57,463 nucleotides of DNA from the NCBI GenBank assembly GCA_025354865.1, contig JANXMB010000114.1, forward strand, positions 1-57,463, read 5' to 3'. Below are positions 46,027 through 56,869 of the stretch, piece after piece. Positions within the stretch are counted from its first letter, which is position 1; every line of letters begins with the position of its first letter. A program made the translations under genes and the position numbers. The notes beneath the pieces were generated by a model. It had not been told where the DNA came from. It worked only from the letters and a program-made list of their open reading frames with translations, and made no database searches. Source of the stretch: Acetobacteraceae bacterium (GTDB lineage: Bacteria; Pseudomonadota; Alphaproteobacteria; Acetobacterales; Acetobacteraceae).

Positions 46027-46116
46027 GGAGAGATGGCCGAGTGGCTTAAGGCGCACGCTTGGAAAGCGTGTGTGCGTGTAAACGTACCCAGGGTTCGAAT
46101 CCCTGTCTCTCCGCCA
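46027..46116 (+). tRNA. tRNA-Ser (anticodon GGA)
   Basis: A 90-nt tRNA including CCA. The acceptor arms GGAGAGA and TCTCTCC pair perfectly, the anticodon loop reads CTTGGAAAG with anticodon GGA, the long variable arm of serine tRNAs is present, and GGTTCGAATCC forms the T loop and stem. It lies 51 bp after lepA. The 3' end is the boundary of the island that follows. Confidence 0.97.
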
Positions 46117-52886: not shown

Positions 52887-53786
52887 ATGGCCGGCACACC
52901 GACATTTGCCACTCCGCCCGGATTTTTCGGGCTTACCCGGTCCGACCGCGATGCAGCTTTTGCCGTGGCCGGGGTGCCGCTGGATATCGGCACCACCAAC
53001 CGCACCGGAACCCGCGAAGGCCCCGCCGCGATCCGCCGCGCCAGCCGGATGCTGCTGGATGGGGCGCATCCTGGATTCTGGACCGATCCCGCGACCTACG
53101 ACATATCCGATATCGGCGATTTCGCCATTGCGCTGGGCGATATTGCCGGGTCGTTGCAAGCGATACAACAACAGGCGGCGGGGCTGCGGCATTTATTGTG
53201 TCTCGGCGGCGAACACGGCATCTCCCTCCCGCTCCTGCGCGCCCTCGCCGGTCGGATTGGCAAGGGCTTGGCGCTGGTGCATTTCGACGCCCATGTCGAT
53301 ACTTGGCCCGACAATTTCGGCCAGATTTACGGCCATGGTTCGGTCTTTTTCCACGCCATAAACGAGGGATTGATCGATCCAAGACGCATGATTCAGATCG
53401 GCATTCGTTCCCCCGTGCAGCGGGACGTCTGGGATTGGACGACGGGGCAGGGGGTCACGATTTTGTCGGGCCTGGATGTTCAGGAAATGGGTCCCACCGC
53501 CGTTGCCGATCGCATACGATCGGTGGTCGGTACCGCGCCAGCTTATTTCAGCTTCGATATCGACGCCCTCGACCCCGCATTTGCGCCGGGCACCGGCACG
53601 CCGGAAATTGGCGGTCTCGCCAGTTGGCAGGCGCAGGCGATCGTCCGTCGCCTCGGCGGCATCGATTTCCGGGGGATGGACGTGGTAGAGGTCGCACCGG
53701 CCTACGATGTGTCGGAAATCACCTCCCTGGCGGCTGCGACGATCGTGTGGGAATATCTTGCGTTATTGCATAGCAGAATTGCTTGA
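52887..53786 (+). CDS. arginase/agmatinase family ureohydrolase
   Basis: 299 residues. The binuclear-manganese motifs are GGEHGIS (His), HFDAHVDTW (Asp/His/Asp) and SFDIDALDPAFAPGTGTPEIGG (two Asp). Family members split arginine to ornithine plus urea, or agmatine to putrescine plus urea. The GGEHG form, with Glu in place of Asp of GGDHS, is seen in agmatinase-like relatives. GAAGG lies 6 bases before the ATG. It sits just ahead of ornithine decarboxylase, so the genes may form a polyamine set. Confidence 0.88.
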   Translation: MAGTPTFATPPGFFGLTRSDRDAAFAVAGVPLDIGTTNRTGTREGPAAIRRASRMLLDGAHPGFWTDPATYDISDIGDFAIALGDIAGSLQAIQQQAAGLRHLLCLGGEHGISLPLLRALAGRIGKGLALVHFDAHVDTWPDNFGQIYGHGSVFFHAINEGLIDPRRMIQIGIRSPVQRDVWDWTTGQGVTILSGLDVQEMGPTAVADRIRSVVGTAPAYFSFDIDALDPAFAPGTGTPEIGGLASWQAQAIVRRLGGIDFRGMDVVEVAPAYDVSEITSLAAATIVWEYLALLHSRIA

Positions 53787-53974
53787 AACGCATTTCATCT
53801 GAAAGCCCCGTGCCCCTATAAGCTTCGTCCCGCCTCCGCCCCCCTCTGGGTTCGGCCAAGCGGTTTCGACGACGCCCGCACGTGCCGCGAGTCCCGCAGG
53901 GGACACAGTAACGACGTAAGCGTCCTTTTCGGTCTGTCCGGTCCAGTTGGCCGGGGTTCGTTAGGGAACTGCCT

Positions 53975-54022
53975 ATGTGTGCTGATCTGTTCGTGGCGCC
54001 GCGAAGTACGCGCATCGCCTAA
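53975..54022 (+). CDS. 15-residue leader peptide upstream of ornithine decarboxylase
   Basis: ATG to TAA gives MCADLFVAPRSTRIA. AGGGA lies 7 bases before the ATG, a good ribosome binding site. The stop codon is one base ahead of a hairpin. Arrest peptides for ornithine and arginine control in other bacteria are of similar position, though longer in enterobacteria (SpeFL). The peptide has three basic or polar residues in APRSTR. Its role is inferred from layout. Confidence 0.5.
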   Translation: MCADLFVAPRSTRIA

Positions 54023-54023
54023 T

Positions 54024-54062
54024 CCTGCCGAGGGGCGCCCCGCGTCCTCGTGCCGGATTTTT
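54024..54062 (+). terminator. attenuator hairpin with U-run in the ornithine decarboxylase leader
   Basis: CCTGCCGAGG and CCTCGTGCCGG pair (5 bp, a bulge, 2 bp, a mismatch, 2 bp) around a GC-rich loop and are followed by ATTTTT (54057-54062). This is an intrinsic-terminator shape inside the leader, between the upstream ORF stop (54022) and the decarboxylase start (54132). Confidence 0.55.
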
Positions 54063-54131
54063 CTCGATCTCCCTGGTTCCGCATGCGTGCCGCTACAGGC
54101 GCGCGTGCCGGTTTTCGCGAGGATTGTTGCG

Positions 54132-55349
54132 ATGTCCGTTGCCCGCTTCCGTACCGCCGTGTCCGCCCCACGCCGTGTTGTCGATCTGCCCGCCGTCCGC
54201 CCGACCGTCGATGCGACGATCGCCGCGCTGCGTCCGGAAGACCCGGTGCACTGCATCCGCCCGACCGCCTTGGCCGCCACCGCGCGCGATTTCGTCGCTG
54301 CCTTCCCCGGCGACGTGCTGTACGCCGTCAAATGCAATCCCGACCCCGCCGTGCTGCGTGCGTTGTGGGATGGGGGCGTGCGGCATTTCGACTGCGCCTC
54401 CCCGGCGGAAATTGCCCTGGTGCGCACGATGTTTGCCGACGCCGCCATCCACTTCATGCACCCGATCAAAGCCCGTGGCGCGATCCGGGAGGCTTGGGGT
54501 CGCCATGGCGTGCGCGATTTCGTCCTCGATTCGGCCGACGAACTGGCGAAAATCCTGGCGGAAACCGGCGCGTCTGCGGACCTGGGTCTGATCGTGCGGC
54601 TGGCTTTGCCGAAGGGGGAGGCGGTGCTCGACCTCTCCGGTAAATTCGGGGCCGAGGCAGCCGACGCCGTGGCGCTGCTGCGCGCCGCCCGTCCCCATGC
54701 CGCGCGCCTCGGCATCGCGTTCCACGTCGGCTCCCAATGCCTGGAGCCTTTGGCGTGGCGCCGAGCAATGGCGGTTGCGCGGGAAACGATCCAGCAGGCG
54801 GGCGTCGCCATCGACATCGTGGATGTCGGCGGTGGATTTCCGGTGGCGTATCCGGGCGTCGAAATCCCCGAACTCGGCGCGATCGTCGCCGAGATCGAGG
54901 ACGGTTTCGATCGTCTGGCGCTGCCGAACGCCCGCCTCTGGGCCGAACCGGGCCGCGCGCTGGTGGCGTCCGGCGGGTCGGTGGTCGTGCAGGTGCAGGC
55001 CCGTCGCGGGGACGCGCTGTATATCAACGATGGCGTTTACGGCAGCCTGGCCGATGCTGGCACGCTGGCATTCCGCTACCCCGTCCGGTGCATCCGTCCG
55101 GTGGGCAACGCGCCGTCCGACGCATTGCGGGGCTTCAGCTTCTTCGGCCCGACCTGCGACAGCGCGGATGCGATGCGCGGCCCGTTCTGGTTGCCGGCCG
55201 ACATCGCCGAGGGCGACTGGATCGAAATCGGCCAACTCGGGGCTTACGGCGCCTGTCTGCGCACCGGGTTCAACGGCTTCGATCGCGCTCGTATCGTCGA
55301 AGTCGCCGACGACGCGCCCGACGGCCGGTGTTTCGCGCTCGCCGCCTGA
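54132..55349 (+). CDS. ornithine decarboxylase (PLP, alanine-racemase fold)
   Basis: 405 residues. The PLP lysine is in LYAVKCNPDP, glycine-rich phosphate binding is in DVGGGFPV, and the second active-site region GPTCDSADAM carries the Cys and Asp contributed by the partner subunit. This is the eukaryote-like type III decarboxylase that turns ornithine into putrescine. The start at 54132 gives MSVARFRTAV. It is preceded by the leader peptide and attenuator, and followed by homospermidine synthase 110 bp downstream. A speC/speF symbol is not given because the family name in this clade is not settled from sequence alone. Confidence 0.9.
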   Translation: MSVARFRTAVSAPRRVVDLPAVRPTVDATIAALRPEDPVHCIRPTALAATARDFVAAFPGDVLYAVKCNPDPAVLRALWDGGVRHFDCASPAEIALVRTMFADAAIHFMHPIKARGAIREAWGRHGVRDFVLDSADELAKILAETGASADLGLIVRLALPKGEAVLDLSGKFGAEAADAVALLRAARPHAARLGIAFHVGSQCLEPLAWRRAMAVARETIQQAGVAIDIVDVGGGFPVAYPGVEIPELGAIVAEIEDGFDRLALPNARLWAEPGRALVASGGSVVVQVQARRGDALYINDGVYGSLADAGTLAFRYPVRCIRPVGNAPSDALRGFSFFGPTCDSADAMRGPFWLPADIAEGDWIEIGQLGAYGACLRTGFNGFDRARIVEVADDAPDGRCFALAA

Positions 55350-55359
55350 CGCCTTCATT

Positions 55360-55389
55360 GCGGGCACCGCCCGCTGGATTCGGTTTTTT
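55360..55389 (+). terminator. hairpin and delayed U-run between ornithine decarboxylase and hss
   Basis: GCGGGC (55360-55365) and GCCCGC (55369-55374) pair around a 3-base loop; six T residues (55384-55389) come 9 bases later. Partial termination before hss is plausible. A second pair of the same arms occurs about 55 bases downstream. Confidence 0.45.
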
Positions 55390-55459: not shown

Positions 55460-56869
55460 ATGACCGTACACGCACGTTTCGACGGACGACTGGTAATGCT
55501 TGGCTTCGGCAGCATCGGCCAGGGTGTCCTGCCGCTGATCCTGCGGCATATCGACATCGCCCCCGAACGGATCGCGATCGTCGCCGCCGACGCAGCCGGT
55601 GCCGATGTGGCCGCCGCATACAATGTTGGCCACACCGTCCTCGCCCTCGATCCGGACAACGACCGGGCCGCGCTCGTGGGCCGGTTGGGACGGGGCGATT
55701 TCCTGCTGAACCTGTCGGTCGATGTCTCCTCGGTGGCGCTTATGGCGCTGTGCCGGGAGGTCGGGGCCTTGTATTTGGATACCTGCATCGAACCCTGGGC
55801 GGGCGGCTACACCGACCCGAATGCCACGGTCTCTCAGCGCAGCAACTACGCGTTGCGGGAATCGGCGCTTGCGCTCGCGCGTCCCGGCGCGGGCGATCCG
55901 ACGGCGGTCACGACGCATGGCGCCAATCCCGGGTTGGTCTCCCACTTCGTCAAGCAGGCGCTGCTCGACATTGCCGCCGATACCGGCGTGCAAACCGCCG
56001 TTCCCGCCGACCGTGCCGGCTGGGCCGCGCTTGCGCGTACCCTCGGCATCAAGGTCATCCACATCGCAGAACGGGACACCCAGACGGCAGATCGGGCGAA
56101 GAAACCGGGAGAATTCGTCAACACCTGGTCGATCGACGGCTTCGTCGGGGAGGGGAACCAGCCTGCCGAACTCGGCTGGGGCACGCACGAGAAAGCGATG
56201 CCGTTCGATGGCTGCCAGCACAATTTCGGCTGCGGTGCGGCGATTTATTTGAACCGGCGCGGCGCGGCAACGCGGGTGCGCAGTTGGACCCCGCTGGAAG
56301 GCCCGTTTCATGGTTTCTTGATTACCCATAACGAAGCGATTTCGATTGCGGATTACTACACCTTGGACGAGGGCGGTTCGGTCCGCTACCGCCCGACGGT
56401 GCACTACGCCTACCATCCCTGCGACGATGCGGTGCTGTCGCTGCACGAACTCGCGGGCAAGAATTGGCGGATGCAGGCCGAAAAGCGCCTGATGATGCAC
56501 GAGATCGCAAGCGGGATCGACGAACTCGGCGTGCTGCTGATGGGGCATGCCAAGGGCGCCTATTGGTACGGCTCCCGCCTGTCGATCGAGGACGCCCGCG
56601 CTTTGGTGCCGCATAACAACGCGACATCGCTGCAAGTGACCGCCGCTGTGCTGGGCGGCATGGTCTGGGCGATGGAACACCCGAGGGAGGGCGTGGTGGA
56701 AGCCGACCAGCTCGATCATGCCCGCGTGCTGGCGATCGCCGCGCCGTATTTGGGGGAGATGGCGGGCGCCTATTCCGACTGGACGCCGCTCGAAGATCGC
56801 GGCGGCCTGTTCGCCGAGGACACCGACCAATCCTGTCCCTGGCAGTTCGGTAACTTTCGCGTGGCCTGA
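55460..56869 (+). CDS. hss: homospermidine synthase
   Basis: 469 residues, the usual length. The NAD-binding motif GFGSIGQGVLP is at residues 14-24, with later family segments TTHGANPGLVSHFVKQAL and HGFLITHNEAISIADY and conserved NFGCG. The enzyme joins two putrescines through an aminobutyl transfer, giving homospermidine, a common polyamine in alphaproteobacteria. AAGGA lies 7 bases before the ATG; an in-frame ATG at 55409 lacks a ribosome binding site and lies in a hairpin-rich region. Confidence 0.93.
   Translation: MTVHARFDGRLVMLGFGSIGQGVLPLILRHIDIAPERIAIVAADAAGADVAAAYNVGHTVLALDPDNDRAALVGRLGRGDFLLNLSVDVSSVALMALCREVGALYLDTCIEPWAGGYTDPNATVSQRSNYALRESALALARPGAGDPTAVTTHGANPGLVSHFVKQALLDIAADTGVQTAVPADRAGWAALARTLGIKVIHIAERDTQTADRAKKPGEFVNTWSIDGFVGEGNQPAELGWGTHEKAMPFDGCQHNFGCGAAIYLNRRGAATRVRSWTPLEGPFHGFLITHNEAISIADYYTLDEGGSVRYRPTVHYAYHPCDDAVLSLHELAGKNWRMQAEKRLMMHEIASGIDELGVLLMGHAKGAYWYGSRLSIEDARALVPHNNATSLQVTAAVLGGMVWAMEHPREGVVEADQLDHARVLAIAAPYLGEMAGAYSDWTPLEDRGGLFAEDTDQSCPWQFGNFRVA

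Follow-up and report, generated by a model that had tools for sequence, protein, structure and literature searches.

Upstream of the ornithine decarboxylase (ODC) gene of this Acetobacteraceae bacterium lies a leader that is real and looks functional, in which translation of a short upstream open reading frame (uORF) is probably gated by a structured RNA. We lean toward the reading that this is a divergent ar45-speF leader: the RNA would gate translation of the uORF, and a ribosome at the uORF stop codon would disrupt the hairpin H2, so that ODC is transcribed. A hairpin acting at the stop codon had been put forward in the preliminary description of this DNA, and this idea survives as the downstream step of the scheme. 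The window, by which we mean the whole stretch of 57,463 nucleotides that was analyzed, contains the following genes and signals around the leader.

52887–53786, + strand: agmatinase, the upstream neighbor (NF002564 and TIGR01230, above cut-off).
53818–53823, + strand: possible −10 element (TATAAG) of a leader promoter, read by eye.
53975–54022, + strand: uORF of 15 codons plus TAA (MCADLFVAPRSTRIA), read in the sequence and in the leaders of relatives.
54132–55349, + strand: ODC, 405 aa (Pfam PF02784 and PF00278; best PDB match 5gjm).
55460–56869, + strand: homospermidine synthase (HSS), the downstream neighbor (PDB 2ph5, E 9.5e-163).

The Pfam domains and the best PDB match, a lysine/ornithine decarboxylase, agree with the earlier assignment of the decarboxylase. 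The uORF runs from ATG at 53975 to TAA at 54020–54022 and has the good Shine–Dalgarno sequence (SD; AGGGA, 53963–53967) that had been read there before; its distance to the decarboxylase, previously given as about 110 bases, is 109 nt from the uORF stop to the ODC start at 54132. A promoter scan of the window called no promoter at the leader, and CTATA stands at the place of the putative −10 element in 18 of the 23 leaders that reach that far. Elsewhere in the window, a GC hairpin with a six-T run between ODC and HSS (55360–55389) is a possible terminator, and a tRNA gene (Rfam RF00005) lies at 46027–46113.

The uORF recurs widely among relatives. A DNA search of 59 genomes, including the source genome, matched 27 of them, a few marginally, and found the widest conservation directly 5′ of the uORF. 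A pattern derived from the conserved core retrieved 79 stretches from a one-genome-per-species collection, with titles that mostly name Acetobacteraceae or Rhodospirillales and a few MAG titles that name other groups. ODC follows 155–551 nt downstream on the same strand in 73 of these 79 stretches; the remaining six have 109–379 nt of DNA left. A uORF with an SD is present in 75 (68 with ATG and seven with GTG starts), most often with a length of 15 (n = 33) or 16 codons (n = 32). Lengths of 14–17 codons occur in 68 of the 75 uORFs, including that of L041, where the end of the locus falls inside the stop, and in 26 of 31 after clustering, compared with 6.6% in mononucleotide shuffles. Four matches were scored as lacking a uORF with an SD: L052 has a GTG frame ending in TAG, and L044, L057, and L106 have no start codon at the uORF place. 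From 103 loci with the core, we obtained 90 uORFs of 14–17 codons with a visible stop and, from these, 61 leaders with less than 95% similarity. The stops of these 61 Acetobacteraceae leaders are TGA in 59 cases, TAA in two, and never TAG, which makes up 41% in shuffles; TAG stops were seen in L052 and L182, both outside this set. The uORF is beyond chance expectation, and comparison of the leaders indicates that its start, length, and stop are kept among relatives.

A conserved frame raises the question of the encoded peptide. In E. coli, SpeFL undergoes ornithine-dependent arrest, and the preliminary description had proposed for this leader that ornithine or a polyamine similarly makes the ribosome stall at the stop codon through the nascent peptide, which would prevent the terminator. 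The maintenance of start, length, and stop fits this proposal, as do the near-uniform TGA (L052 and L182 apart) and the recurrence of R-S-P/T..I-A/V across many family members. Column permutations in the 15- and 16-codon groups (27 and 29 of the 61 leaders) gave no indication that substitutions favor similar residues, with 47/300 and 157/300 permutations scoring as well in codons 2–7 of the two length groups. In both groups, frame 0 outscores the two other frames in codons 2–7, which favors arrest and leaves some room for coding; from codon 8 to the end, the best score lies in frame +2. The family string, in full A-M-R-S-P/T..I-A/V, has its codons in the arms of an RNA hairpin, H1, with which the CGA-AGT codons and AUGCG..CGCAU also coincide.

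53995–54019, + strand: H1, hairpin within the second half of the uORF (folding compared with synonymous recoding).

Thus, the frame is kept, while amino-acid selection of the peptide is unsupported, the permutations giving no signal and part of the motif coinciding with the H1 arms. Furthermore, some clades have other C-termini (VSPDRRRAKPG.., MFSVPHAAMPLHRTLV), the uORFs of leaders from elsewhere in the class (9–59 codons) have no peptide in common, and inspection of the listed uORF peptides did not find the SpeFL core HIRRT..HIM, with RRT alone occurring in L008 and L039, which have the same uORF. We therefore consider arrest by the peptide unlikely; alignment of the leader peptide across relatives bears out the uORF with its SD in 75 of 79 matches and its length, and leaves conservation of the peptide itself unsupported. 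The uORF could also act by codon-based attenuation, in which slow decoding of Arg (CGA is frequent at codon 9 or 10) would report arginine or the charging of tRNA-Arg, as in orf34. Most of the peptides have two or three Arg codons, and Salmonella orf34 is described in the accessible text of PMC6386406 as sensing arginine via codons 12 and 13, but some clades (AAMPLHRT, AAMLSHR) no longer have the CGA, and it sits in H1, so that nucleotide constraint could account for it. This makes arginine-dependent attenuation improbable.

The most conserved part of the leader is found upstream of the uORF, at 53871–53967, and is predicted to fold into the following elements.

53871–53875, + strand: P1 5′ strand, GACGC (all counted cells paired).
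53876–53919, + strand: ar45-like core with CGCACGTGCCGCGAG, a variable P2 hairpin, CACAGTAACGACG, and short inner helices (near-invariant columns).
53920–53924, + strand: P1 3′ strand, GCGTC (pair counts).
53923–53932, + strand: anti-SD strand TCCTTTTCGG, predicted P4 5′ strand (duplex energies, pair counts).
53938–53954, + strand: P3 hairpin CCGGTC..GGCCGG, enclosed by P4 (double changes in five of six pairs).
53957–53967, + strand: SD1, the SD of the uORF, with its flank TTCGTTAGGGA, predicted P4 3′ strand (duplex energies).

Among the Acetobacteraceae leaders, 96.6% of the cells in this fold are paired and eight of 21 pairs show double changes, a result that none of 500 shuffles reached. 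In 49 leaders mostly from outside the family, whose alignment was fitted to the model, 93.4% of the cells are paired, with double changes in 11 of 20 pairs. P1 has changed from CG to UA in L105 and L109, and AU to GC and GC to CG changes occur elsewhere. These comparisons indicate that the fold formed by P1, the inner helices, P2, and P3 is conserved.

The helix order of the core matches that of Rfam ar45, and the preliminary description had called the leader speF-type. Neither Rfam speF (RF00518) nor ar45 (RF02347) gave a match in the window, the latter not even at E ≤ 10; speF was likewise not found in the source genome or in 14 control genomes, and at the gathering score Rfam yielded nothing in 20 loci positive for our own model, R1, including that of the window. 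R1 is a covariance model built from 46 Acetobacteraceae leaders only: of the 61, 12 that had long insertions, were of the GTG type, or nearly duplicated others were removed by hand, and a further three were omitted. It recovers 12 of 13 loci that were found with the Rfam speF model (two of them, L120 and L121, below the Rfam cut-off, and three, L113–L115, near relatives of L112), at E ≤ 2e-4 and across the ar45/speF junction; the thirteenth, L031, was matched only at E 0.09 and out of register. The kinship with speF is thus supported by way of R1, while the covariance search with the Rfam speF model itself gave no match in the window. Matches to ar45 and speF adjoin within one leader in eight of ten scanned speF-model loci (L030–L032, L112, L116–L119), which have in common the block CGCACGUGCC, a variable hairpin, the block AGCAACGACG, the 3′ strand of P1, a U-rich strand, a GC hairpin, and an SD. 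By this comparison, 53871–53967 is homologous to ar45 together with the start of speF. After their SD, most of the speF loci (L030–L032, L112–L121) have a UUG, from which short or long frames start, for example LPHVRIGPPVPT.

Each half of this element has been described before. In the accessible portion of the 2005 account (PMC1273637), the "extended speF element" consists of a stem near the start site with a large insertion on top, followed by about 80 conserved nucleotides; this element probably already spans both Rfam families, which makes the joining of ar45 and speF less new. The same portion makes no mention of a uORF, and reports that in-line probing of the speF RNA of A. tumefaciens showed no binding of six pathway compounds, homospermidine not being among the six. 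A later study (PMC7717549), in the part accessible to us, notes that ar45 and speF adjoin, were observed as separate RNAs, and have an unclear function.

We examined which genes follow the leader. Among 200 family genomes, R1 matches were found in 61 and ODC in 63, and in 59 of the 63 ODC-bearing genomes the leader stands directly before ODC on the same strand. The four others are G034 and G363 (both with ODC at a contig edge), G304, and G204, in which only a weak R1 match (E 0.29) lies upstream of ODC. Three further matches in the family comprise a second copy before HSS in G307 and weak matches before a second type of ODC in G344 and G350. Across 241 genomes of the class, R1 matched 35, including the source genome. 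Apart from the latter's own match, 40 of 41 matches precede ODC of one of the two types or HSS, and the remaining one lies at a contig end: 13 stand before an ODC with 54–65% identity to that of the window, 24 before an ODC with 30–36% identity, and three before HSS. L163, the only one of the 30–36% identical ODCs tested, also has a lysine/ornithine decarboxylase as its nearest PDB entry. The leaders before HSS, all R1 matches in the numbering of their loci, are as follows.

L181, 514–620: leader before HSS.
L152, 1501–1614, − strand: leader before HSS.
L156, 1501–1616, − strand: leader before HSS.
L196, 535–715, − strand: leader before HSS.

One genome, G443, contains three copies of the leader, before two ODC types and HSS. 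This placement bears on the idea that the upstream RNA acts solely in trans, as the sRNA ar45, and happens to be transcribed beside ODC, the uORF and the hairpins being incidental. Independent expression of ar45 from speF in Bartonella and S. meliloti and its co-precipitation with Hfq in S. meliloti, both from the accessible part of PMC7717549, agree with such a role, but the steady cis position before ODC or HSS, the copies at three polyamine genes in G443, and the predicted pairing of the 3′ flank with SD1 speak for action in cis. Moreover, a short ar45 transcript would also be expected if attenuation occurs past P1 and the U-rich strand. We hold a purely trans-acting role to be very unlikely. 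In L112 (1409–1492) and similar leaders, the end of ar45 is formed by P1 and the U-rich strand and resembles an intrinsic terminator; therefore, the ar45 sRNA may be an attenuated leader.

The 3′ flank of the conserved RNA may connect it with the uORF. The strand between P1 and P3 reads CCUUUU or GCUUUUUU in most leaders and has other letters in a few (e.g., L186, L188), and in 112 of 114 leaders the best duplex between this strand and the sequence 3′ of P3 involves the SD belonging to the first AUG (AUG1). The P4 duplex has a mean energy of −11.7 kcal/mol, compared with −8.7 for a shuffled 5′ strand and −10.7 for the 5′ strand of another locus (standard deviation 0.2 each, 20 rounds). In the shuffle control, P4 passed on the cells paired and on the covariation score, and failed on the number of double-change pairs, which was five in alignment A4 (equaled by 34/500 shuffles) and four in A5 (322/500), two alignments with many rows in common. 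The inner pairs of P4 often fail; slid versions have lower covariation scores, with a slide of +3 pairing as many of its fewer cells. In 45 of 51 leaders, folding without a shuffle control predicts that SD1 is largely paired (unpaired below 0.3). Covariation in P4 is modest; comparison of the leaders shows a U-rich strand capable of base-pairing with the SD of AUG1. The peptide had been taken as the sensor in the preliminary description; against this stands that the most conserved part of the leader is the upstream RNA, whose 3′ flank would pair with the SD of the uORF.

We surveyed AUG1 in 40 leaders outside the Rfam-speF loci and the G307 pair, with L167 and L179 left out. AUG1 has an SD in 36 of the 40, opening a separate ORF of 9–59 codons in 31 and running in frame into ODC, apparently as its start, in five (L161, L176, L177, L184, L189). 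No other in-frame ATG with an SD precedes the ODC core in those five loci, and L184 has a GTG with a weak SD; some of the five could be chance frames. The apparent use of AUG1 as the ODC start points to AUG1 as the target of the switch, with the uORF as a relay. The survey also touches the possibility that the uORF is a product of chance and that the leader works solely by RNA-based control of ODC translation. Peptide-level constraint is unsupported by the permutations and three relatives (L044, L057, L106) lack a start codon at the uORF place, as this would predict; the occurrence of AUG1 with an SD in nearly all surveyed leaders and the retained length of 14–17 codons (26 of 31 clusters versus 6.6% in shuffles) count against it, and we judge a chance uORF rather unlikely.

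Two further hairpins lie between the uORF and ODC.

54021–54062, + strand: H2, hairpin resembling a terminator, located at the uORF stop and followed through to TTTTT (folding; relatives).
54081–54108, + strand: H3, second stable hairpin, 5′ of the ODC SD (−21.6 kcal/mol).

H2 corresponds to the hairpin with a T run noticed earlier at the uORF stop: its stem spans 54021–54059, with outer A-U pairs overlapping the stop codon, and its T run 54058–54062. With a predicted energy of −20.9 kcal/mol and a z of −2.84 (3/200 shuffles as good), H2 of the window looks like a good candidate for an intrinsic terminator; a simple terminator scan listed nothing at this place, probably owing to a bulge and a mismatch in the stem. 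In relatives, the mean z of H2 is −1.6 and falls below −1 in 39 of 61 leaders, and H2 is weak or missing in several, chiefly the Belnapia group, where the stop is 43–54 nt from ODC. At least four T within 8 nt after the H2 fold are present in 20 of the 61 non-redundant leaders, and a run of at least four T within 70 nt of the stop in 18, so the T run is mostly local. When the place of a ribosome at the stop is forced open in the model, pairing of the next 45 nt decreases from 0.47 to 0.16 (51 leaders), in part by construction, in keeping with the earlier proposal that such a ribosome would cover the 5′ arm of the hairpin. The same opening does not free the ODC SD (14 up and 10 down, of 51 leaders). 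As the modeled loss of H2 comes without opening of this SD, control of transcription would be favored.

H1 folds only mildly better than synonymous recodings (mean z −0.73 in 61 leaders), and its register shifts between clades. The mean z is −0.89 for the family (65 leaders), −0.37 for the class (40 leaders), and −1.58 for nine speF loci, six of which are below −1, against −0.09 for 217 control windows. As a class-wide feature, H1 was rejected as weak (z below −1 in 10 of 40 class leaders versus 18% of control windows). Three other candidates were set aside. H2 is not the dominant hairpin of the spacer, since the most stable one starts at most 10 nt from the stop in only 11 of 51 leaders, with 6.8 expected (57 leaders used, hairpin found in 51). 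Pairing of H1 or H2 with the ODC SD was seen by eye in single clades only, and the modeled effect of a ribosome at the stop on it is nil on average. In the window and in many nearer relatives the end of the uORF (CATCGC) could pair with the start of ODC (GCGATG), a candidate that was dropped because the context of the ODC start differs in other leaders.

In the reading that we favor, the gated uORF on a divergent ar45-speF leader, P4 would hide SD1, and a signal of polyamine status, sensed by the RNA or by a protein, may shift P4 and thereby decide whether ribosomes load at AUG1. At the five loci in which AUG1 appears to serve as the ODC start, this control would be direct; in the window and the family, AUG1 begins the uORF, which is usually 15 or 16 codons long. 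A ribosome reaching the uORF stop would cover the 5′ arm of H2, and transcription would continue into ODC, while on an untranslated uORF H2 would end transcription, perhaps with Rho taking this part where H2 lacks U's. Because the RNA seems to hide the SD of a tiny gene whose translation enables ODC, it is a likelier sensor than the peptide, and the search for the sensor moves from the peptide to the RNA. More tentatively, ar45 and speF may be two halves of one widespread alphaproteobacterial polyamine switch, serving two ODC types and HSS, with SD1 gated through P4 and the ar45 sRNA as its product, ended prematurely after P1 and the U-rich strand. The signal could be homospermidine, a candidate because this triamine is made by the controlled genes. 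The arrangement suggests how the same switch could control a gene either directly or by way of a short ORF. Since 2005, speF has stood as an orphan regulatory RNA, and the literature describes ar45 as an sRNA with no known function. Read as a single element, as already hinted in the 2005 description, the two make one testable switch; the present comparison detects this element where the Rfam models fail, adds HSS to the genes that it precedes, and points to an SD that may be hidden. The literature searched, in its accessible parts and with subscription papers largely outside the search, holds no description of a gated uORF in this leader, of its occurrence in Acetobacteraceae, or of its position before HSS.

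The leader can be compared with five known systems. It shares with ar45 (RF02347) the helix order, the two conserved sequence blocks, and the succession of P1 and U-rich strand, but the letters of P1 are GCCC/GGGC there and GACGC/GCGTC in the window. With speF (RF00518), it has in common the P3 hairpin and an SD-like GAAGAGG after the ar45 part, which pairs with GCUUUUUU, as well as the position upstream of ODC, that of the window being of the COG0019 type as judged by its Pfam Orn/DAP/Arg decarboxylase domains; in contrast, AUG1 is absent from the uORF place in all nine such loci examined, mostly with UUG instead. The orf34/SpeFL leader of Salmonella speF, as described in the accessible part of PMC6386406, similarly has a uORF before ODC that is required for expression, with a hairpin just past its stop, and translation of orf34 can prevent early termination before ODC; however, orf34 has 34 codons and the HIRRT..HIM core, and its termination is Rho-dependent. 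The odc1 (uORF-25-1) motif, according to the accessible text of PMC8632094, also joins a structured RNA to a short uORF before an alphaproteobacterial ODC, but this uORF encodes 11 amino acids and begins at a UUG two nucleotides ahead of the main UUG, whereas the window has AUG, 15 codons, and ODC 109 nt further on. Finally, the SAM-II riboswitch of S. meliloti metA (PMC9373788, in the part accessible to us) involves an unrelated RNA and gene, an AUG1 in frame with AUG2, and a known ligand, but has the same layout, with SD1 and AUG1 inside the switch and an intrinsic terminator before the AUG2 of the gene.
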